A stretch of 64,000 nucleotides of DNA from assembly GCA_030429495.1 (NCBI GenBank), contig JAUIFH010000002.1:124001-188000 (forward strand), in the 5' to 3' direction. Source of the stretch: Alphaproteobacteria bacterium. GTDB taxonomy: Bacteria > Pseudomonadota > Alphaproteobacteria > Rhodobacterales > Rhodobacteraceae. The translations under genes and the position numbers were made by a program. This document shows, piece by piece, positions 480-14,645 of this stretch. Below the pieces are notes generated by a model. That model saw only the letters and a program-made list of their open reading frames with translations, was not told the origin of the DNA and made no database searches. Each line of letters opens with the position of its first letter. The stretch's first letter is position 1.

Positions 480-520
480 GCCGGTGTAGCTCAGCTGGTA
501 GAGCACGTCATTCGTAATGA
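480..520 (+). pseudogene. 5' part of host tRNA-Thr(CGU), interrupted by element
   Basis: Bases 480-520 give a normal tRNA 5' half. The acceptor strand is GCCGGTG, followed by the D arm, the 5' side of the anticodon stem CGTCA, the loop TTCGTAA with anticodon CGT, and TGA of the 3' side. After base 520 the sequence no longer fits a tRNA. The matching 3' part, ending in acceptor CACCGGC, discriminator A and CCA, lies at 14599-14645. The two parts join through a shared 12-bp sequence to give a complete tRNA-Thr(CGU). The gene is therefore split by the inserted element and should not give a functional tRNA here. Confidence 0.9.
509..520 (+). other. attL core
   Basis: The 12-bp sequence CATTCGTAATGA occurs here and again at 14599-14610 in the same orientation. 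Here it ends the 5' part of the host tRNA-Thr; at the other copy it starts the 3' part. It covers the anticodon loop and flanking stem bases. Flanking bases diverge at once on the element side, so only 12 bp are shared. Confidence 0.88.
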
Positions 521-779: not shown

Positions 780-1625
780 ATGACGATATGCGTGGCAGTA
801 AAGGTGCAGGACTGCATCGTATTCGCTGCCGACAGCACGTCTTCGCTTTCCGCAGTCGTGAACGGGCAACAGGTGACGATCAACACCTATGACCATGCCA
901 ACAAGCTCTACAATTTGAGAAAAGGCTTACCAATCGCGGCAATGGTGGCTGGTATCGGCAACTTCGGAGCCTCTTCAATCGCGACAGTCTCAAAGGACTT
1001 CCGTGCGCTCCTATCGACGGAGGGGAGCGAATATTACGTAAATCCGGAGAACTACACGATAGAAGAAGTCGTGCAGTCGGCGCGCAAGTACTTCTACGAA
1101 GATCGCTTTAAGGCCATCACACCCACGCCAACGGGGACTTTCCAATGTTGGATTGGCGGCTACTCCCACGGCCAAGACATCGGCGAGATTTGGCGCTTCC
1201 AAATCGACAACGGCGCGCTGGGCGACGCCGTCTGTGAGGCCGATACGACTGTCACCTCAACCATCTCGTGGGGCGGCGCGCCAGAAGCCATCAATCGCTT
1301 GGTCTTGGGATACAGCCAAGAACTCGGAAAGGCTCTCGTGGCGAATGGAATGGAACAAGCGAAGGTCCCGCAGGCCATACAGGAGATCGGCAGGCACACC
1401 CAAGCCAATCTGGTCAATCCTGCAATGCCGACCGCGGACGCTATCGACCTTGCGAGGTTCTTGGCTGAAACGACAAAGCAGTTTGTCCGTTTTTTACCCG
1501 GCAGCAACTCCGTCGGCGGCAACATCGACATCGCGACCATCACGAAGCACGAGAACTTCAAGTGGGTTGCTCGAAAGCACTTCTACTCACCCTCTTTGAA
1601 TCCATTGGAGACGGACCATGCCTGA
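780..1625 (+). CDS. proteasome-like Ntn hydrolase
   Basis: A 281-residue protein of the proteasome beta/HslV fold. It begins MTICVAVK, so removal of Met would expose Thr as N-terminal nucleophile. Counting that Thr as 1, the Asp of AAD falls exactly at 17, as in proteasome beta subunits. A Lys in HANKLYNL (about 41) is the probable counterpart of catalytic Lys33 after a short insertion. The AGIGNFG and SWGGAPEA segments fit the later conserved loops. The C-terminal region (GGNIDIATITK, FKWVARKHF) also resembles this superfamily. There is no propeptide. The start has a strong GGAGGG 9 bp upstream. It is not HslV: it is longer and there is no hslU nearby. A 57-residue ORF overlaps its 3' end. 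It lies at the element end as likely cargo; its substrate is unknown. Confidence 0.72.
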   Translation: MTICVAVKVQDCIVFAADSTSSLSAVVNGQQVTINTYDHANKLYNLRKGLPIAAMVAGIGNFGASSIATVSKDFRALLSTEGSEYYVNPENYTIEEVVQSARKYFYEDRFKAITPTPTGTFQCWIGGYSHGQDIGEIWRFQIDNGALGDAVCEADTTVTSTISWGGAPEAINRLVLGYSQELGKALVANGMEQAKVPQAIQEIGRHTQANLVNPAMPTADAIDLARFLAETTKQFVRFLPGSNSVGGNIDIATITKHENFKWVARKHFYSPSLNPLETDHA

Positions 1626-1791
1626 ACGTCTACCCATCGACCCTCAACCAAGACGTGACCTCGAACTCCCACCGCTGGTCAGCGCGCAACAAAAAGAAGG
1701 CGTCGCCTCAGCGAGAGAGCCGGAGCCGGTGAAAGGCGAGCCAAAGAATTTGTTTGCAGGCATGACCTTCGAAGGTGCGAACGGCTCCTAA
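1618..1791 (+). CDS. 57-residue protein overlapping the proteasome-like gene
   Basis: This short frame starts with ATG inside the last codons of the Ntn-hydrolase gene, overlapping it by 8 bp. GGAG lies 7 bp upstream of the ATG, so translational coupling is likely. The product is hydrophilic and Pro/Glu-rich, begins MPERLPIDPQPRRDLEL and ends in a small hydrophobic patch (NLFAGMTFEG). No domain is recognisable and it may be largely unfolded. The overlap and good ribosome site suggest it works with the hydrolase, for example as a partner, regulator or substrate, but this is inference. Confidence 0.6.
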   Translation: MPERLPIDPQPRRDLELPPLVSAQQKEGVASAREPEPVKGEPKNLFAGMTFEGANGS

Positions 1792-1822: not shown

Positions 1823-1898
1823 TGGTGCCTCAAGAGGGACTCGAACCCCCGACCTACTATTTACGAAACAGTTGCTCTACCAGCTGAGCTATTGAGGC
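1823..1898 (-). tRNA. tRNA-Thr(CGU), element-encoded
   Basis: The minus strand folds as a complete 76-nt tRNA. The acceptor pair is GCCTCAA/TTGAGGC, all seven pairs matched. The D arm is GCTC-AGCTGGTA-GAGC, the anticodon arm ACTGT-TTCGTAA-ATAGT with anticodon CGT, the variable loop AGGTC, the T arm GGGGG-TTCGAGT-CCCTC, then discriminator A and an encoded CCA. The anticodon equals that of the host tRNA-Thr destroyed by the insertion, but the acceptor and anticodon stems differ, so it is not a copy of that gene. It lies just downstream of the HNH gene. A 13-bp hairpin abuts its 5' end, which may help processing from a longer transcript. Confidence 0.93.
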
Positions 1899-1944: not shown

Positions 1945-2418
1945 TCAGAACGGGATTTCCTCGTCGCCATCACATGAGAAGACACCCACTTCCGCATCAC
2001 GGATGAAGAACCAGTCGCCGCGCTTACGGTTAAGTGACCGTGGGATAGCGCGCAGGTTCCACGGAACGTGCTGACCGCGCATGACTACCTCGCCGAACTT
2101 GTTCTGACCGAACAGTTGGACGAGGTGATCGACTTCATGTTCGATCCCCGTCACTTCCGTAAGGCTCTCCGCTTCTTCGTAGACGGCGAGGATCTGCCGC
2201 TTGTGCTCGTCGGTCAGCCAGCGCGGGACTGCCTTCGCACTGTCCGCCCGACGCATAGCCGTGTCGCACTTGCGCTTGGCCTTGTGGCGCGCGTAGTAGC
2301 GAGCGTCTTTGCTCAGCATGGCGAGATGCGCTTCGCGGCGCGCCTTGCGCAGCGCTTCATTTTCGGCCGTTTCGCGTTCGGCCTCAGCGGCTTCCGCCGC
2401 GATTTCCAGTGGAGTCAT
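1945..2418 (-). CDS. phage-type HNH endonuclease
   Basis: A 157-residue protein. An N-terminal charged helix (about residues 1-60) is followed by an HNH nuclease domain: EHEVDHLVQL (Asp97-His98), GQHVPWNL (His117, Asn121) and SLNRKR (Asn130, Lys132). This order is the phage HNH type often encoded next to terminases, where it acts with TerL in DNA packaging. The ATG at 2418 is preferred over an upstream one because GGAGG lies 7 bp before it. The gene is on the same strand as the terminase genes but separated from them by plus-strand cargo, which may have been inserted later. It could also be a stand-alone homing-type nuclease. Confidence 0.8.
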   Translation of the reverse strand: MTPLEIAAEAAEAERETAENEALRKARREAHLAMLSKDARYYARHKAKRKCDTAMRRADSAKAVPRWLTDEHKRQILAVYEEAESLTEVTGIEHEVDHLVQLFGQNKFGEVVMRGQHVPWNLRAIPRSLNRKRGDWFFIRDAEVGVFSCDGDEEIPF

Positions 2419-2778
2419 TGTCCACCTCCAGGTGGCTTGTGGATATGGAGGGAACACCGGCCACCAACGGCGCACGCCTCATTCGCCGCTGACGCGGCAG
2501 AATTCTGTGCATGTGTTGAACCGTTGATGATTGCGAGCAGAGGGCGCACCCATGTGACCGCAGGGCATTGGATACGCCGATTCGGCCTCCCGAGTCAACG
2601 CATAAGTATCTGAAACTGCTCGCGTTTAAACGTGCGCGTTTAAACGCCCAAGCCAGCGCGTCAGAGAGGCGGCTTGCGCTCGCTGCCCACAACGATGGGG
2701 CGTTGGTGGCAGTTGCCGAAGAGCGCCCGAAGACACTGCGGCGTTTGACGGAATCGCTGTGCCGTGCCTCTATGAGGC
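2419..2778. other. 360-bp divergent intergenic region
   Basis: The region lies between the HNH gene (minus) and the membrane protein gene (plus) and should hold their promoters. The only clear structure is the tandem CGTTTAAACG pair at 2623-2646. No reading frame has a convincing ribosome site or recognisable product. Confidence 0.5.
2623..2646. promoter_or_regulatory. tandem CGTTTAAACG palindromes (candidate operator)
   Basis: The 10-bp perfect palindrome CGTTTAAACG occurs at 2623-2632 and 2637-2646, 14 bp apart. A third copy lies at 7408-7417 inside the 223-residue protein gene. Two close copies in a divergent intergenic region are typical of a repressor operator. No repressor gene is identifiable, so the binding protein is unknown. 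Confidence 0.45.
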
Positions 2779-4193: not shown

Positions 4194-4904
4194 TCACCAG
4201 TATCCCCGCAATTTGCCGACCTCCATGCGCTGCGGCGCGAGATGCGTTTCGCCGATCAAGGCAAGGCACAGCGCGGAGAAACGGTCGGCATGGTGGCCGC
4301 GCCCGCCTGCCTTGAGCGTCAGGTTGCCCGCCGACGACTGCGCATATTCGACCGACTGAATCTCGTTCAGCAGTTCCTGCCGCTCCGGCAAGTCGTGGGC
4401 GATGATCAACTCGCCGGTCTCGAACTTGGTCGCCGCGTTCTCGAACAGCAGGGCCTTCGACACGGTGGCCGCATCGCCATTACGGCTGAACGATGACCCG
4501 GCTGTGATTGTCACCCCGAGCGCCTGCACCTTCGCCGCCGCGAACATCGACCGCAGGGGCGCGCCGAGCCCCGAGGCGTCGAAGATGAACCGCCAATTCT
4601 TCAACTGACCGAGACGGCCAACCACCCATTCGACCACATCTGTCGCCTCCGCGCAGCGCATGGTCTCCGTGAAGACGACCGAGTATTGCGGCGGCGTCAG
4701 AGCCTGCTCCCAGCCGCGACCCGTCAGGAATGGCCGCGACTCGGACTTGATGATGCAGAGCGCGGACGGATCGTCGCCACGTCCGCCCACATCCAGCCCG
4801 ACGGCAAACCTGCGCCAGCCTACACGGCGGTGTCCCGCCCCCGCAGGATCGGCATTAGTCGGCAGGACGAGCGCGCCGTGTTCGAGTTCGATCAGGTCAG
4901 ACAC
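4194..4904 (-). CDS. large terminase, nuclease part (separate gene)
   Basis: This 236-residue product is the C-terminal, RNase-H-like nuclease half of a phage large terminase. Candidate metal ligands are Asp in VGLDVGGRGDDPS (about residue 38), Asp in FIFDASGLG and Asp in HHADRFSALCLAL near the C-terminus. It starts with GTG inside the end of the ATPase gene, overlapping by 13 bp in another frame. AGGAG lies 8 bp before the GTG, so separate, coupled translation is likely. In most phages both parts are one protein; here they are two. A sequencing frameshift could also create this, but the ribosome site argues for a real split. Confidence 0.82.
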   Translation of the reverse strand: MSDLIELEHGALVLPTNADPAGAGHRRVGWRRFAVGLDVGGRGDDPSALCIIKSESRPFLTGRGWEQALTPPQYSVVFTETMRCAEATDVVEWVVGRLGQLKNWRFIFDASGLGAPLRSMFAAAKVQALGVTITAGSSFSRNGDAATVSKALLFENAATKFETGELIIAHDLPERQELLNEIQSVEYAQSSAGNLTLKAGGRGHHADRFSALCLALIGETHLAPQRMEVGKLRGYW

Positions 4905-5680
4905 AGTGCCTTCTCCTCATTCTGCATGGCGCGCTCCAAGGTGTTCCACGACAGCAGGCTCTCGCCCGCGCCGACCCACTCGCACAGGTGTTCGCGCCGG
5001 AACGTCGCGTCGGACATGGTGCGGCGGTCAAATTCGATCTGCGCGAGCCGGTCTTCCCGCGTCGTGTCCATCGACCGCGCCTTGATGCGGCGGACGTTGG
5101 CATCGGATTCCCACGTCTCGTAGAAGTAGCCGTTCCGCGTGCCGTTCGGGGTGGACAGCAGGAAGATGCGACCCGTGGAGCGACGCATCGGGAAGAATGC
5201 GGTCAGCGCCTCGTCGGGCTGGATGAAGCACGCCTCGTCCCCGATGATCAGATCGGCGGTCTCGCCCCGCGCGTTCTCGTTCGCGGGCAACACGGTGATA
5301 CGCCCGCCGTGGCGCGGATGCGCCTCAAGCTCCGTCATGGTTTGCCGCATGATCGGCGGGGGCGCGGGGTCGGTGTGCATGAAGGCGATGATGCGCCGGA
5401 ACAGCGTGATCGACTGGCGCATCGACGGCGCGGTCAGGATGACCTCTTGCCCGCGCGTATAGGCGTCGTAGGCGAGGCAGCCGCAGGTCGTGCTCTTGCC
5501 CGACTGCCGCCCGACGAGGCACAGCAGCATCCTGTCCGTCTCGCTCTTGCGCGGATCGGACCGCAACACCTGCTCCTGCCAAGGGTCAGGCTCGCCCACA
5601 GTCATTCGGAAACGGGTGATCGGATCAACCGCCGCTGCGATGCCGCCGAAGAAGCGCGTGACCTGCGGATCGAGCATCAT
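4892..5680 (-). CDS. large terminase, ATPase part
   Basis: A 262-residue product with the packaging-motor ATPase half of TerL. Walker A is GRQSGKST (residues 57-64), Walker B is DLIIGDEA, and the coupling motif is LLSTPNGTRNGYFYE. It ends shortly after the linker region (SLLSWNTLERAMQNEEK), where a normal TerL would run on into the nuclease domain. That domain is encoded by the next, overlapping gene. The ATG overlaps the TerS stop by 4 bp (ATGA), so TerS, ATPase and nuclease are translationally coupled. A second ATG follows directly. Confidence 0.88.
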   Translation of the reverse strand: MMLDPQVTRFFGGIAAAVDPITRFRMTVGEPDPWQEQVLRSDPRKSETDRMLLCLVGRQSGKSTTCGCLAYDAYTRGQEVILTAPSMRQSITLFRRIIAFMHTDPAPPPIMRQTMTELEAHPRHGGRITVLPANENARGETADLIIGDEACFIQPDEALTAFFPMRRSTGRIFLLSTPNGTRNGYFYETWESDANVRRIKARSMDTTREDRLAQIEFDRRTMSDATFRREHLCEWVGAGESLLSWNTLERAMQNEEKALCLT

Positions 5681-7687: not shown

Positions 7688-9067
7688 CTACTCCTGCTGC
7701 GCTGGGAACCGCAGAATCGTATCCGATAGACCGCCGCCTTCCTCGTCGATGAGGTCCAGTTCGTCCTCCGTGCTGCGGTCGATCACCTCGCCCTTGCGCA
7801 GCGCGTCGATGAACGACTGCCGCGACAGCGCGCCCGCGTTGACGGCGGCGAGCAGACTCTTGACGAGGTTGTGGTCGATCTGGCTGGAGATCAGGTCACG
7901 GTTGAACTCAACGATGACTTCGCCGGGTTGCACCCAGTCAGCCGCCCACGACAGCAGCGTCCGCAGACCGGCCTCGAGCATCGTGATCGAGGACAGCAGC
8001 ATGGATGTGTCGTTCTGATACCGCATCGAGGCGGTCTCGGCAGTCTCTTGGCGACGCTGGCCGGACAGGATCATCGTCGCGCCGAGGGCGTTCATGCGGC
8101 TTTCCGTGTCTTGGATCGCCGTCCGCAGCGAGGCGTGGGCGTCCGAGGGCGCGGACAGATATTGCGCGGTCGCGCCTTGAGGCAGGAACCAGATCGTACC
8201 GGGGCCGATTGCGCGCGGCTTCTGGTCTTCGGTCAGGCTGCCGGTGACGACGGGCGTTGGCATCGACGACATCCAGAGGGCGTGGGCGAGTTCGGCGCTG
8301 TGCTGGAAATGCTGGATGTTGGTATCGACGAGGTCGAGAAGCGGCGGCTTCTCCGTGTCGGGCGACAGGTTGTAGGGCGAGAACACGATGGCCGGGATAT
8401 AAGCCAGTGGGGCACCTTTCACGGTCGGCAAGATGGGATCGTGGACTTCCGACTCGATGGCGTTGCCATCGGCCCCGCGCTTGATGTGGAAGCGGCGGAT
8501 GGTCAGGAGCGGGTCGAGTTCGAGGACAAGGTGCTGTTCCGTGCCGGTGTCTTCGAGGTCTTCGTTGAACTCGCACAGGCGGAGCATGGTCAGGCGTTTG
8601 ACGCCGCCCACGACGCCCATCTTCCAGTCGCGAATGTCCTCGGCGAGGAAGGTGGAGATGTGCGGCACAGACAGCGAGTCGAGCTGGCCTTCGTTGACCG
8701 GGAAGTCGAGCAGGGCGCAGACGCGACCAACCGTGACGATCTCGCGCAGCAGGAATTCCGAGAGCACCTCGATCGAGTTGCCGTCGTAGGAGGCGCGGCG
8801 CAGCATGGGTTCGAGCCGGGGCGGCACGGTAAAGGAGGGCGGCTTGCGGAAGCACAGACCGACGGCGGCGCGGGTCGTCGATTCCGCGACGGGATAGAAG
8901 GGCGCGCCGCGGACGTAATTCTCCCACTCGGCCGTCGTCAGGCCTTCGGGGCGGCGCAGGAACAGGGCGGCGTTCTCGCGCATGGCGTCCTGCCCGTCGA
9001 GGGCATAGCGGATGCGGTCGTACTGGGTGCGCCGACTTTGATAGGTGCGATGGGCGATGCGAGTCAT
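7688..9067 (-). CDS. phage portal protein (DUF4055-like)
   Basis: A 459-residue protein resembling the DUF4055 portal family. Features include an N-terminal helical region (YALDGQDAMRENAALFLRR), the stretch YVRGAPFYPVAESTTRAAVGL, a central beta-rich part and a C-terminal helical crown region (RQETAETASMRYQNDTSMLL) followed by the asymmetric EVIVEFNRDL segment. A portal forms the ring at the capsid vertex through which TerL drives DNA. The ATG at 9067 is chosen because GGAG lies 6 bp before it; an upstream ATG at 9118 lacks a ribosome site. No capsid gene follows, which is unusual. Confidence 0.8.
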   Translation of the reverse strand: MTRIAHRTYQSRRTQYDRIRYALDGQDAMRENAALFLRRPEGLTTAEWENYVRGAPFYPVAESTTRAAVGLCFRKPPSFTVPPRLEPMLRRASYDGNSIEVLSEFLLREIVTVGRVCALLDFPVNEGQLDSLSVPHISTFLAEDIRDWKMGVVGGVKRLTMLRLCEFNEDLEDTGTEQHLVLELDPLLTIRRFHIKRGADGNAIESEVHDPILPTVKGAPLAYIPAIVFSPYNLSPDTEKPPLLDLVDTNIQHFQHSAELAHALWMSSMPTPVVTGSLTEDQKPRAIGPGTIWFLPQGATAQYLSAPSDAHASLRTAIQDTESRMNALGATMILSGQRRQETAETASMRYQNDTSMLLSSITMLEAGLRTLLSWAADWVQPGEVIVEFNRDLISSQIDHNLVKSLLAAVNAGALSRQSFIDALRKGEVIDRSTEDELDLIDEEGGGLSDTILRFPAQQE

Positions 9068-9197
9068 CTCAGTCTCCGGGTTTGAAGCCCCATGTGGCCG
9101 GTCGGGCAACGACCACATGGGGCGGGGCCACGCGATCCGCCCACAGTGCTGACGCTACGCGATCCAGCGGTTTGGGCATCTTCGGCGCGGTTTGGGG

Positions 9198-10329: not shown

Positions 10330-12702
10330 CTACAGACGCTCATCCTTGATGAACCACCGCGTCGTGCCCTGATACCGTGATTTCTCGATGGTCAGTGCAA
10401 TCCGCCCGCCCTTGGCCGTATCGAAGTCGAACGGCACACCGAGGTTGTGGCGAAGCAAATCACCGACGACGCGCGCGGGATCCTTGAACCCGAAGTCGAT
10501 GTCCGCCTTGCCCGCGTTGACGAGAAGGACGACATCCGATGCCTTGTATGGCTTCGTCCAGTCCACATCGTTCTGCCAACCGTTATCCTCGTCGTAGTGC
10601 GACCCAGACGGATCGGATCGCCCGCGCTGCGCATTGAACATGGCGAGGACGAGTTCGCGCACCTGATCGCCTTCGGGATCATCGGGGCGTCGATCCTCGG
10701 GCGTTTCGAGGAAGCCCGTGACGCCGATGCTGTCGAACAAGCCCGACATGACCTTCGACCACGTTTCGTAGGACGCCTTGTGCCCGTCACCCTCGGGCAT
10801 ACCCTGATTGACCCAGTATTGGATGATCGTGCAGGCGGCCCGAACCTGCTCGGCCTGCTTCTCGCGCACCCACTCTTTCAGGTTGCGGATGCGGAATTGG
10901 GTGGCGGCCCGATCCTCGGGGTTCGCCATCTTCGCATCCATGCGGATGTCCACGGTGCGGCGGTAAAGCTCGCTCGACAACTGCGTGTTGTTGCCCGAGC
11001 CGACCCACTGCACCTGGACTGGCACGCGGCACATCTTGGAAACGCCGAGGATGCGGGCGGCGTAAACCTCAGCGGTCAGAGCCGAGGCGAGTTCGCCCGA
11101 GTCGAGGTAGTTCGCGTTGTCGAAGTAGATCACGCGGTCGCCCTCGATGAAGCAGGCGGTCAGCGTCTTCTTCATTTCCTCCTTCGCCGTGGGCGGGGTT
11201 TGCGCCTCGGGGAAATAGCCCAAGGTCGGGTAGAGGGACGTTTCGATGAACAGCGATGCGCCCGTGCCCGCGCGCGGCTTGTTGACGAAGTACATGGGGG
11301 TCGGGCCGAACATGTCGCGCATGTAGGGTTCGAGGACCATCGCGAGGGCGTGGACGCGATCCGACCGATCCTCGAAAGGAAACTGCCGAATAGGGGTCCA
11401 CAATTGCCGCAACGCCCAGCGGACATCTTGGCGTGTCGGTTCGTCGGGAACGTCCACATCGACTTCGAGGTCGATGAAGATGCCGGAAGCCTCGTCGAAG
11501 CCACGCCGCTTGAGGATACGCCCGTCCTTCGTGAACGTCGGGACGATGGACACACGGCGCAGTTCGGGCACCGTCACCTCGGCCCGCCGCGCGGACAGCA
11601 TGTCTTCCACGCAGCCGCTGGGCGCGGAGGTGCGTTTCCACTTGTCGCCGTCTTGGGCGAGCCACGAGGCGCAGCGGTTCAACTCGAACTTGAGGCCGGA
11701 GGCGTCGAGAACGCCGAGACGGCCACGGTCAACGCGGGCGAGGGTTTCGCCGTAGGCATAGACGCCGGGATCGTCGTCAACTTCGTATTCCGAGAGGGCG
11801 TGCCACGCCTGCTTCGCCACGTCGCGCACCACGCCGGAGAGGAACACGACAGGCCCGCTGCCTTCGGGGTTTTCCTTTGCCCACCCGAGCCAGACAGCGA
11901 TCTTGCGCATCCATTCGACGGGGATACCTAGCGACTTGGCAGTCGCCGGGATTCCGCGAAACTTGCGACCGTTCTCCTGCCGCTTGAGCGTGCGCTTCGC
12001 CTTGTCCACGCGCATGTCGATCTCGTTGTCGCCGACGACCAGACAGAATTGCCGCACGAAGACTTCGATCTGTTCCTGCTCGTAGCCCGCCCGCACCATG
12101 CAGCCGACGATCCCGAGCATGGCTTCATCGCGGCCACCTTGCGCGGGATAGAAGCGGGCGAGGGCGGACACACCGGCGATGAAGGCGCACGTCTTCACAA
12201 GCGCCTTGCCGTCGGTCTCCTTGATGGCGATATGCGTTTCGCCCGTCACGGCGTCGAAGTTCCATTCGAGCGTGTCACCGTCAGGGTGGACTGATGGCGG
12301 GATCATCGCGTGATACGGTTCGCCACCAGCGGACGTGCGCACTTGCAGGATCATGTTGCCGTGCGGCCCCGACAGCTTGGGCGCGCCCGGCTCGTCCTTC
12401 AGCTCGAAGTTGACGCCTTTCGCGATTTCGGCCGCGTAGACGAGGTGGGTGATCTCGTTCTTGCGGCCCCATCCGAACGTTGGGCCGTGGTCGTTGAACA
12501 GCAGGGGCGCGAGCATCCGCGATTCCGGCCAGTCGAAGTCGATGTCCACCTTCTTCTCGTCGATCATCAGGCCGACGTTGCAGCCGGAGAGGTCGTCGAG
12601 GTCATATTCCTTGGTGGCGTATCCGATCTGCTTCGGTTCCTTCGACCTCGGCTTGAGCGGGATCAGCTTGCCTTGCTGCGCGAGGCGTTCGAGTTCAGTC
12701 AT
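10330..12702 (-). CDS. phage primase-helicase (prim-pol plus NTPase)
   Basis: A 790-residue replication protein. The N-terminal part (about 1-200) resembles the bifunctional primase/polymerase domain, with VDIDFDWPE as the metal-binding acidic motif (Asp53, Asp55). The C-terminal half resembles a phage/plasmid helicase. PRAGTGAS (about 476-483) sits where Walker A is expected, but the Lys is replaced by Ala482. VIYFDN is the likely Walker B, and WVGSGNNTQLSSELYRR a sensor/arginine region. It probably initiates replication of the element at the adjacent repeat array. The ATG at 12702 is chosen because GGAG lies 7 bp upstream; the ATG at 12714 has none. The missing Lys suggests altered or lost ATP binding. 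Confidence 0.75.
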   Translation of the reverse strand: MTELERLAQQGKLIPLKPRSKEPKQIGYATKEYDLDDLSGCNVGLMIDEKKVDIDFDWPESRMLAPLLFNDHGPTFGWGRKNEITHLVYAAEIAKGVNFELKDEPGAPKLSGPHGNMILQVRTSAGGEPYHAMIPPSVHPDGDTLEWNFDAVTGETHIAIKETDGKALVKTCAFIAGVSALARFYPAQGGRDEAMLGIVGCMVRAGYEQEQIEVFVRQFCLVVGDNEIDMRVDKAKRTLKRQENGRKFRGIPATAKSLGIPVEWMRKIAVWLGWAKENPEGSGPVVFLSGVVRDVAKQAWHALSEYEVDDDPGVYAYGETLARVDRGRLGVLDASGLKFELNRCASWLAQDGDKWKRTSAPSGCVEDMLSARRAEVTVPELRRVSIVPTFTKDGRILKRRGFDEASGIFIDLEVDVDVPDEPTRQDVRWALRQLWTPIRQFPFEDRSDRVHALAMVLEPYMRDMFGPTPMYFVNKPRAGTGASLFIETSLYPTLGYFPEAQTPPTAKEEMKKTLTACFIEGDRVIYFDNANYLDSGELASALTAEVYAARILGVSKMCRVPVQVQWVGSGNNTQLSSELYRRTVDIRMDAKMANPEDRAATQFRIRNLKEWVREKQAEQVRAACTIIQYWVNQGMPEGDGHKASYETWSKVMSGLFDSIGVTGFLETPEDRRPDDPEGDQVRELVLAMFNAQRGRSDPSGSHYDEDNGWQNDVDWTKPYKASDVVLLVNAGKADIDFGFKDPARVVGDLLRHNLGVPFDFDTAKGGRIALTIEKSRYQGTTRWFIKDERL

Positions 12703-12851
12703 CTTTCTCTCCATTGTCGGAGAGCGACGGATGGGCTCCTAACATTCCGGTTGGGCGCTTACGGGCGAGCGACTATGATGGTGTCGCAATCGCTTGTGGT
12801 AGGGCGTTGTTTCCAGTCGGAATGTCGGGGCGGCCATCAGGTCGCCCCGTT

Positions 12852-13094
12852 TCACATTTCCGTCTTGCCCTGCACCCACGCATCCACGTCGGCGCGGCGA
12901 TAGCGAACCCAGCGATCCGTCGGCTGACAGAATCGCGGGCCACCGCCTTCCTTGCGCATCTGGTAGAGGCGTTCGGCAGAACACTTGAGATAGGCCGCGC
13001 ATTCCTGCGTGGTCATGAGTTCAGGCGGGTTCGCCCGAACAACGATTTCCATGATTTCGTCGAGTTTCGACTCGAGGGTCGAGAGGTCAGTCAT
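12852..13094 (-). CDS. excisionase-like helix-turn-helix protein
   Basis: An 80-residue protein. A short N-terminal helix is followed by a MerR/AlpA-type HTH (about residues 25-75): MTTQECAAYLKCSAERLYQMR, then a GGGPRF wing and VRYRRADVDAWV. This is the HTH_17 pattern of excisionases and AlpA-like activators in phages and satellites. It lies between the integrase and primase-helicase genes, as expected for a directionality factor or early regulator. The ATG at 13094 is preferred because the protein from there matches the usual length and domain boundaries. Confidence 0.75.
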   Translation of the reverse strand: MTDLSTLESKLDEIMEIVVRANPPELMTTQECAAYLKCSAERLYQMRKEGGGPRFCQPTDRWVRYRRADVDAWVQGKTEM

Positions 13095-13237
13095 GAGGCC
13101 ACCAATTTTGGGTTGGAGCCAGATGACCGGGGCGCGTCTTGACTGCTTCTGCCGCGGGCAACTCGCGGCGCAGGCGCCTTCGGCCTCACGCCCGTGCAAG
13201 GTTCTGTCCACGGGCGAGGAGGCGATGTGCTTCTAAT

Positions 13238-14461
13238 TTACGTTCCAGTTGGGCGCATTTCAACAACAGAAGAAGGTGTCGATTTGCACCGCGACATGAT
13301 GTAGGCGGAAACCTTGTTCGCCGCATCACGCTGCGAGGCGAGGTCGGGCACGCCGTAATGGCCGAGCATGGCGATCTCCTTGCCGGTGAGGTTTTGGCCG
13401 TTCAGCCAGCGTTGCAGGTGGTAAGGGATCACGACGGACATCGCGGCCTCGTTCCACAGATGGCGAACATCGCCGGGGGCAGTCAGGGGCAGGCGGTCGA
13501 GAACGTCGAGATGGCCGTGCTTGCCCTTGATGCGGCGGACGGACGGAAACACCCAATCGCTCGCGTGCATGTCGCGCAGTCGCTGGAACACGGACAGCGC
13601 ATAGTCGGAGATGGCGACGGTGCGACCGTTCTCGTCGCGCTTGAGGCGGGCGAACGTCACGGTGCCCTTTTCGAGATCGACCTGCGACCAAGTCAGTTCG
13701 CGCAGGACGTTCTCGCGGCAGCCCATGTGCCACCGCAATTCCCAGCAGGCGCGTTTGATCGGGTTGTCAATCGCCACGACTTCCTTCCAGCGGTCGGCCC
13801 AGTCGATGTCGCGGTCAACGTCACGCTTCGGCTGCTTCGTGATGTCGGTCAGCGTCGGGATCGGCAGGACGATGGCGTGGACCTTGCAGGCATGGCGCAG
13901 CGTCGCGCCGATCACGGCGTGGGCGCGGTAGGCGGCGTGCGGACGGTCTTTCTGCAAGGCGTTGAGGTGTTGGTTGACGTTGCGGGTCGGCAGCTTGTCG
14001 ATCTGCACATCTTCCCACGTGGCGAGGTGAAGGCGAAACGTTCGGCGGTATTCGTCGGCGGTGTCGGCCTGCATCCGGCTCTTGCCCGAGAAGCGCGGGC
14101 CGGTCTGATGCGACAGATAGGCGTCGAGCGCGTCGGCAAGGTTCGGCAGGGGCATTTCCTCCTCGACCGCCTTAACCGCCTTCTCTGCGCGGCTCATGAA
14201 GTCTCCGGCGTCCATCTCCGACTTGACCTCGGATGCGATCCGCCATGCCTCGTCACGCTTCATGTTCGGGAACTGCCCGATCTTCACCTGCCGCGACTTC
14301 TGCGCCGCGCCGTCCCACTTCGATGCGTACCACGTCTTCGTGCCGCCCGACGTGACGGACAGGCGCAGCCCGCGATAGGTCTTGTCCGAATACCACTCCA
14401 TCGCCGACAGCGGTTTGATCCGCTGGATCGCGCTGTCTGTGAAGGTCATCGTCGTCGCCAT
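13238..14461 (-). CDS. int: tyrosine integrase
   Basis: A 407-residue site-specific recombinase. Residues 1-90 are an arm-binding domain of the DUF4102 type (GLRLSVTSGGTKTWYASKWD). Residues 105-200 form the core-binding domain. The C-terminal catalytic domain has Arg249 (GCRENVL), His348-x-x-Arg351 (HLQR) and His368 (MLGH). The nucleophile is not at the usual place: no Tyr lies about 10 residues after His368, and the only downstream Tyr is Tyr388 (Tyr369 is adjacent to the His). AGGAG lies 6 bp before the ATG. The gene is next to attR, 137 bp from the core, with arm-type repeats between. It should integrate the element into tRNA-Thr. Confidence 0.88.
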   Translation of the reverse strand: MATTMTFTDSAIQRIKPLSAMEWYSDKTYRGLRLSVTSGGTKTWYASKWDGAAQKSRQVKIGQFPNMKRDEAWRIASEVKSEMDAGDFMSRAEKAVKAVEEEMPLPNLADALDAYLSHQTGPRFSGKSRMQADTADEYRRTFRLHLATWEDVQIDKLPTRNVNQHLNALQKDRPHAAYRAHAVIGATLRHACKVHAIVLPIPTLTDITKQPKRDVDRDIDWADRWKEVVAIDNPIKRACWELRWHMGCRENVLRELTWSQVDLEKGTVTFARLKRDENGRTVAISDYALSVFQRLRDMHASDWVFPSVRRIKGKHGHLDVLDRLPLTAPGDVRHLWNEAAMSVVIPYHLQRWLNGQNLTGKEIAMLGHYGVPDLASQRDAANKVSAYIMSRCKSTPSSVVEMRPTGT

Positions 14462-14598: not shown

Positions 14599-14610
14599 CA
14601 TTCGTAATGA
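14599..14610 (+). other. attR core
   Basis: Second copy of CATTCGTAATGA. It begins the 3' part of the split host tRNA-Thr. The element side (GAGCG before it) does not match the tRNA 5' half, so the tRNA is not restored at this junction. Confidence 0.88.
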
Positions 14611-14645
14611 TGGGGTCGGGGGTTCGAGTCCCTTCACCGGCACCA
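14599..14645 (+). pseudogene. 3' part of host tRNA-Thr(CGU)
   Basis: From the core onward, the sequence gives the 3' side of the anticodon arm (TGATG), variable loop, T arm (GGGGG-TTCGAGT-CCCTT), acceptor CACCGGC, discriminator A and CCA (14643-14645). CACCGGC pairs fully with GCCGGTG at 480-486, which proves the two parts came from one gene. Confidence 0.9.

Follow-up and report, generated by a model that had tools for sequence, protein, structure and literature searches.

The closest described relatives of the hydrolase considered here are the PMI proteins (Proteasome homolog with Multiple Insertions; Fuchs, Alva and Lupas, 2021; PMC8665760). In the available part of that account, about 700 PMI homologs are catalogued (nr90 counts, Table 1) without a functional lead; they occur across phyla, with PMI-4 in phages. 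PMI-2 to PMI-6 carry an insertion between H3 and H4, and PMI-3 and PMI-4 carry a further one after H1/H2. The same part reports no genomic contexts suggestive of function for PMI homologs, and neither a coupled small partner nor a satellite cargo position of PMI genes was found in it. It also describes the phage proteasome homolog (PPH), which has about 140 residues and no H2. We found no description of a small partner or of PMI genes as cargo in the searchable open-access literature, and the available parts of PMC9519451 and PMC9122126 do not mention 'proteasome'.

Type II toxin–antitoxin systems (Panacea, HigBA, VapBC) are, as is the pair described below, made up of two adjacent or overlapping genes that behave as interchangeable cargo; they differ in that the larger protein of our pair is a proteasome-type hydrolase. 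The gene order of most type II modules is the reverse of enzyme-then-small. In the Pup-proteasome gene cluster, a disordered protein of about 60 residues is encoded next to a proteasome subunit, and the cluster resembles our pair, in which a small and probably disordered protein is coded beside a proteasome-type gene. Pup-like tagging was considered and rejected, as a GG[EQ] C-terminus was present in 0 of 84 ORFs taken as partners.

The window, the whole stretch of 64,000 nucleotides that was analyzed, is situated in a 3.83-Mb genome. It contains an integrated element that appears phage-like from its terminase, portal, primase and integrase genes, that may be a phage satellite as suggested earlier, and that extends from a 12-nt core, CATTCGTAATGA, at 509 through a second copy at 14599. 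The features of the element are as follows.

480–520, plus strand: left attachment site and 5' half of the split host tRNA-Thr(CGT); the core, at 509–520, is shared with 14599
780–1625, plus strand: proteasome-like Thr hydrolase, short form, 281 aa (from fold, catalytic residues and homology to the long form)
1607–1610, plus strand: ribosome-binding site GGAG for the small ORF, within the hydrolase gene (from the sequence)
1618–1791, plus strand: small partner, 57 aa (from Rhodobacterales conservation, pairing counts and pN<pS)
1823–1898, minus strand: element-borne tRNA-Thr(CGT) (near-identical copies in related elements)
1945–2475, minus strand: endonuclease VII-like protein, element backbone (PHROG 1035, E 5e-6; counterpart beside the tRNA in the related element L173)
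4194–5680, minus strand: terminase large subunit in two ORFs, 4194–4904 and 4892–5680 (PHROGs; Pfam for the second ORF)
7688–9118, minus strand: portal protein (PHROG 145, E 5.6e-93)
10330–12714, minus strand: primase/polymerase-type replication protein (PHROG 19930, E 8.6e-16; the stronger matches lack a named function)
12852–13211, minus strand: excisionase-like HTH protein (HTH_17; TIGR01764 below cut-off)
13238–14461, minus strand: tyrosine integrase (Pfam PF00589 and PF13356)
14599–14645, plus strand: right attachment site and 3' half of the host tRNA-Thr (second copy of the core at 14599)

The joined flanks of the element fold as an intact tRNA-Thr(CGT), and neither attL nor attR alone gives one; the split of the host gene falls in the anticodon loop. 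Rather than restoring the host tRNA at one junction, the element carries its own intact tRNA-Thr(CGT), which is the probable replacement for the split gene. The best match of the endonuclease VII-like protein is PHROG 26577, of unknown function. The two terminase ORFs, corresponding to the ATPase part and the C-terminal part, overlap by 13 nt, which may reflect a natural split or a frameshift.

Both ORFs of the pair start with ATG and overlap by 8 nt (1618–1625), and the GGAG lies 7 nt upstream of the ATG of the 57-aa ORF. The layout given in the preliminary description, a 281-residue ORF overlapped by a 57-residue ORF with a ribosome site, was thus correct in its coordinates. The small protein had also been called Pro/Glu-rich, and a count gave nine Pro and seven Glu; judged from this composition, it is probably disordered. 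A promoter scan upstream of the pair returned none, at a chance expectation of 0.7. The hydrolase had a non-significant match to the Pfam Proteasome family (E 0.21) and matched PHROG 5990 (427 positions, function unknown) with E 2.8e-12, and a PDB sequence search with it gave nothing useful. PADLOC recognized neither the pair nor the hydrolase; its one stray match was BrxL (E 0.006), for the protein of a Porphyromonas phage.

The proteasome beta (Ntn) fold that had been suggested from the sequence was then evaluated by structure prediction, the check named for it. An AF2 model of the short form, built from an alignment of 24 sequences, had a pLDDT of 89.4 and a pTM of 0.86, with residues 274–281 as the sole segment below a pLDDT of 50. 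The top Foldseek matches were 20S proteasome beta subunits (E 2.5e-9). The best VIA-align score was a Z of 20.5, for Anbu over 205 residues; mammalian beta subunits reached about 19.5, and all 1000 chains looked at had a Z of at least 8. The relatives fall into two types, short (~280 aa) and long (~430 aa). A model of the long form (434 aa; alignment of 23 sequences) reached a pLDDT of 86.6 and a Z of 17.5 to proteasome beta and Anbu, and the short and long profiles aligned almost end to end (hhalign E 4.6e-32). From these models we are confident that the window protein adopts the proteasome beta fold.

The catalytic residues suggested earlier were found in place. Thr2 follows Met directly, and VIA-align places it (model residue 2) on Thr1 (chain residue 1), in agreement with the proposed Met-Thr start and lack of a propeptide. 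Asp17 is present and the counterpart of Lys33 is aligned; numbered from Met rather than from Thr, they are Asp18 and Lys42. To the relatives we applied an automatic rule that accepts Thr or Ser right after a Met, Leu, Val or Ile codon able to serve as a start. By this rule, 83 of 85 full-length relatives have the nucleophile behind a possible start codon and Asp 16 residues further on; of the two misses, L033 has both residues by eye and the N-terminus of L015 lies in another frame. The Lys motif was detected in 79 of the 83 rule-passing relatives, Lys was visible by eye in L054, L022 and L045, and L056 is an outlier. Among 69 relatives with a Met start placed by the rule, 66 have Thr2 and three have Ser2; in 15 rows without such a start, whose start codons were not individually checked, Thr stands at the matching place in 14, L015 excepted. 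A propeptide is required in none of the rows. The conserved tail at the hydrolase C-terminus, W.xRKHYF...LN, was detected in 78 of 90 loci, and a partner ORF is present in 75 of the 78 loci with the tail vs 8 of the 12 without it (fragments included). The end of the tail is of low confidence in the isolated AF2 model; we speculate that the tail may be a candidate binding site.

Anbu, the best structural match, and HslV, which shares the fold and Thr1/Asp17/Lys33 with the window protein, were compared through two host proteins that we take, from their sequences, to be Anbu and HslV. The host has an Anbu-like gene besides the window hydrolase; the hhalign match to its product is limited to residues 1–69 (E 4e-4, probability 35%). 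The possibility that the window protein is itself HslV was rejected, as hhalign against the host HslV-like protein gave a probability of 0.3% and no meaningful match. HslU was not found among the window proteins scanned, and no accessory ATPase was seen among the element proteins scanned.

In common with PMI proteins as described in the available part of PMC8665760, the window protein has the proteasome core fold, Thr1/Asp17/Lys33, no propeptide and an H3–H4 insertion. Read from element order, helices 182–207 of the short-form model, inserted between 169–176 and 218–237, form the H3/H4 insertion, and helices 102–219 and 292–366 of the long-form model form the insertions after H1/H2 and between H3/H4. 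The predicted short form therefore fits PMI-2 and the long form PMI-3/PMI-4, with the subfamily inferred because the published PMI sequences could not be compared. PPH, as far as that source covers it, is likewise a phage-borne proteasome relative and differs in size (~140 residues vs 281 aa) and in lacking H2, where the window protein has both helices 67–79 and 94–112. The hydrolase thus very likely belongs to a family already known by sequence, the PMI homologs. The module had been proposed as undescribed: this does not hold for the protein family, which fits the PMI proteins of PMC8665760, and does hold, as far as searched, for the near-universal small partner and the life as cargo.

To score the pairing, 153 candidate hydrolase ORFs of at least 100 aa were reduced to 92 non-redundant ones at 85% identity (loci L001–L150), of which 91 had the at least 150 nt of downstream sequence required, L063 having none. 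The 'any' rule took a same-strand ORF of 35–130 aa whose start lay from −30 to +40 relative to the hydrolase stop; the strict rule added an ATG and a Shine-Dalgarno match of at least 4 nt. The control comprised 291 other large ORFs from the same loci. Small ORFs followed 81 (any) and 66 (strict) of the 91 hydrolases vs 115 and 41 of the 291 controls (Fisher p 2.5e-25). In L122, scored as strict, and in the first half of L025, the 'partner' proved to be the C-terminal portion of the hydrolase itself, frameshifted. When these two, the further N-terminal fragments L017 and the first half of L059, and the outlier L056 were left out, 77 (any) and 65 (strict) of 86 loci were paired (odds ratio 19, p 1.2e-26). 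The 65 strict partners have a median length of 57 aa; 23 of them run across the stop of the hydrolase, and for 41 the start is no more than 25 nt from it.

Nine of the 86 loci were scored as partnerless. By eye, the partner of L115 is just under the length limit and those of L060 and L040 lie further downstream; L038, L057 and L058 have a longer downstream frame, and L031, L034 and L037 are doubtful. Where no separate ORF was present, the idea that the partner had fused to the hydrolase was not supported. A later set of 19 hydrolases, less than 85% identical to the first set and with no influence on the rule, included 18 with enough sequence; all 18 had a small ORF of any start type and 14 had a strict one. 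Within the Rhodobacterales, a small ORF follows the hydrolase in 7 of 7 loci (the window, L001, L002, L003, L004, L009 and L012, with L009 covering the hydrolase end only), and six share the identical 8-nt overlap; in L004, the hydrolase frame extends past the conserved start. Conservation of the small ORF beside homologues, on which the preliminary description depended, was therefore borne out, and the pairing is near-universal.

The partners are under purifying selection: pN was below pS in 126 of 128 partner pairs (15/15, 55/55, 21/21, 14/15, 14/15, 3/3, 3/3 and 1/1 in the eight groups), values that give directions and not rates because pS is near saturation in many pairs and the pairs are non-independent. 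The group motifs include ELREWQ..FNP..FSW, KQSF..QPKSVKDFF..NFF, MSLQQVV.NAYKALAAA.F and GFFNIP; that of the window clade is DP.PR.D.ELPP...N.L.G..F, with PP invariant among nine relatives. There is no cross-clade resemblance between partner families. On a quick tree of 84 hydrolases, with long branches flagged and weak support for GFFNIP, the partner groups required 8 changes, the minimum possible, vs 31 when shuffled. The labels comprised nine groups, with 46 rows labelled by eye and 38 unlabelled; the four large non-window groups were labelled by partner sequence, and some small groups also by origin. Downstream of the small ORF, a terminator-like site was present in 45 of 77 loci, vs 84 of 492 random windows. 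Pairing, selection, tree and terminators together suggest that enzyme and partner are bicistronic and descend together.

The pair lies between the left core and the element tRNA, at the far end from the integrase, which agrees with the cargo position at the element end proposed for it. Its GC content is 55.7%, compared with 63.1% in the remainder of the element and 65.5% in the host, and 0 of 240 host windows were as low. Two congeneric genomes (G012 and G016) have related elements in the same tRNA gene, L173 and L174, whose element tRNAs are 99% and 95% identical to that of the window; neither genome gave a hydrolase match. L173, from G012, is cut by a contig end; between its left junction and the tRNA lie a resolvase and a fragment that matches HSDR_N weakly, below the cut-off (E 0.03). 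L174, from G016, is a more distant element in reversed order, with the tRNA at the right junction; its tRNA–junction interval holds a SocA/Panacea antitoxin gene (PF13274, E 1.5e-19) followed by a 244-aa ORF. From these differing occupants we conclude that the tRNA–junction stretch is a variable cargo slot and that another of its occupants is an antitoxin-type pair. The hydrolase pair itself is mobile. The 244-aa neighbour of the Panacea gene (L174:9973–11296), which has no Pfam or PADLOC match, is a candidate toxin.

Elsewhere, similar two-gene pairs occur in phages, phage satellites and plasmids from widely differing bacteria. The distribution is rare and patchy: with the window's genome counted each time, the hydrolase was detected in 5 of 101 relatives, at the level of the phylum in 10 of 398 genomes and at that of the class in 11 of 289. 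The long form is present in 13 phage records, nine of them streptococcal, of which seven are satellites; a viral scan with L039 found no relative. Of five streptococcal satellite records that were opened, four have the hydrolase as their final or penultimate annotated gene; in Javan421, it is gene 20 of 27, followed by an unannotated 55-aa partner ORF. The integrase stands at the opposite end in the two satellites opened whole. A gene pair of about 121 and 98 aa precedes the hydrolase in all five satellites, and in Javan103 this pair is a Gp49-type toxin and an HTH protein. One version of the hydrolase occurs in 9 of 5426 E. coli genomes (at least 80% of the query covered), and a partial distant match in 22 of 5426. 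Five plasmid records carry the hydrolase. The three opened are all from Rhizobium, and one plasmid copy is frameshifted. On these Rhizobium plasmids (L068, L069, L070 and L168), the long form is separated by ~1.4 kb from two genes annotated as multiubiquitin (E2) and ThiF (E1) (Pfam run for one), with a ClpP-like gene further on in L168.

In the Acidobacteriota (L005, L006, L007 and L010), the hydrolase is followed by an 81–96 aa ORF without a significant Pfam match and then by a PIN-type gene (PIN tested in L006 only, E 5.7e-5). This gene order suggests that protease and toxin–antitoxin may form one three-gene unit. The neighbours of 19 mostly chromosomal loci were mostly housekeeping genes among the best 25 of 81 Pfam families listed. 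PADLOC matched 43 families among these 71 neighbours, none in more than three members, with no control set alongside; on this basis, defence-island enrichment was not seen around the 19 loci. Some single matches were strong, among them one to a type IV restriction enzyme (E 1.2e-53). In several loci (L013/L160, L014/L157, L015, L069, L119 and L122; sequencing error is possible), the hydrolase copy is interrupted or broken into at least two frames, as expected for an accessory gene that is sometimes costly.

The most likely reading of these data is that the protease is regulated in trans by a partner of its own and that the two travel as cargo for defence or addiction. Put in full, the pair would be a mobile two-protein proteolytic module, with the small protein as cognate regulator and a probable role as defence or addiction cargo; we hold this tentatively, at somewhat less than an even chance. 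It draws support from fold, catalytic residues, pairing, partner selection, co-inheritance and cargo position, and the roles in regulation and defence are what we infer from them. Low GC, the variable interval, occurrence in satellites and prophages and the PIN-type neighbours in Acidobacteriota count for cargo; the dissimilarity of partner families across clades, housekeeping neighbours, the PADLOC results and the reversed type II gene order count against the reading as a whole. The hydrolase, having no propeptide, would be active once Met is removed, and the small partner would be made by coupled translation at a matched level. The partner would then bind the hydrolase via its short conserved motif, although one binding mode shared by all clades is a guess because the partner families differ across them. 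Most likely, binding would restrain the hydrolase, with the partner serving as a propeptide or inhibitor in trans, and an event such as phage infection would remove or displace the partner and free the enzyme. The module would ride in the variable cargo slot, its benefit probably being defence or addiction.

The small protein might instead be an adaptor or activator that docks on the hydrolase and either opens it or delivers selected (phage) proteins, in place of the missing AAA+ unfoldase. The lack of an accessory ATPase among the element proteins scanned speaks for this, as do the short aromatic/proline motifs near the N-terminus of several partner groups (LREWQ..FNP..FSW, KDFF..NFF and GFFNIP) and the hydrophobic C-terminus of some, which would suit docking. 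On its own, however, an adaptor leaves the fast change in partner sequence unexplained, and we consider it unlikely. That the small protein is a substrate, trimmed or ligated by the hydrolase into an active peptide, by analogy with connectase and its target, would suit a small ORF directly behind a protease-fold gene, and connectase shows that the proteasome fold can be a ligase (PMC8665760, available part). The partners are Lys/Glu-rich, however, and neither an exporter gene nor a common cleavage site was noticed in passing, in an unsystematic look; we hold this role to be quite improbable. It is also distinctly unlikely that a real module serves the element itself, in lysogeny control or stress response, and not defence. 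In E. coli prophages, the hydrolase neighbours Q in one case (L163) and in another comes immediately after a gene for a repressor-like HTH protein (L164), as such a role would lead one to expect, but pairs also occur among chromosomal genes and on plasmids, where a role in the prophage cycle is hardly possible. A chance ORF in GC-rich DNA, for which the strict ORFs behind control genes might speak, has virtually no probability left, being refuted by the control comparison, the later set and pN<pS in conserved sequence families.

Extended beyond this locus, the reading of a protease under its own regulator would cast PMI homologs, as Thr proteases lacking a propeptide, in the role of effector within a proteolytic immunity or addiction module that is mobile and widespread; the other half, a small disordered protein that evolves fast, would restrain them and be titrated by phage factors. 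This is possible, with the balance of probability tilted against it. If the immunity reading is true, bacteria have a proteasome-based immune module, and the fast change of the partner reflects an arms race. Partner, co-inheritance and cargo position give the ~700 PMI homologs counted in the available part of PMC8665760 a functional lead and open the question of their role to a direct test with a single two-gene construct plus a Thr mutant. In both E. coli genomes that were opened, the partner ORFs of L163 and L164 (49 and 34 aa) lack a RefSeq annotation, so that the partner has been easily missed. A separate minor observation concerns the distant alphaproteobacterial long forms L041, L042, L044, L045 and L047, which have no RKHYF tail and are followed by larger ORFs of 90–110 aa, possibly marking a separate subfamily.
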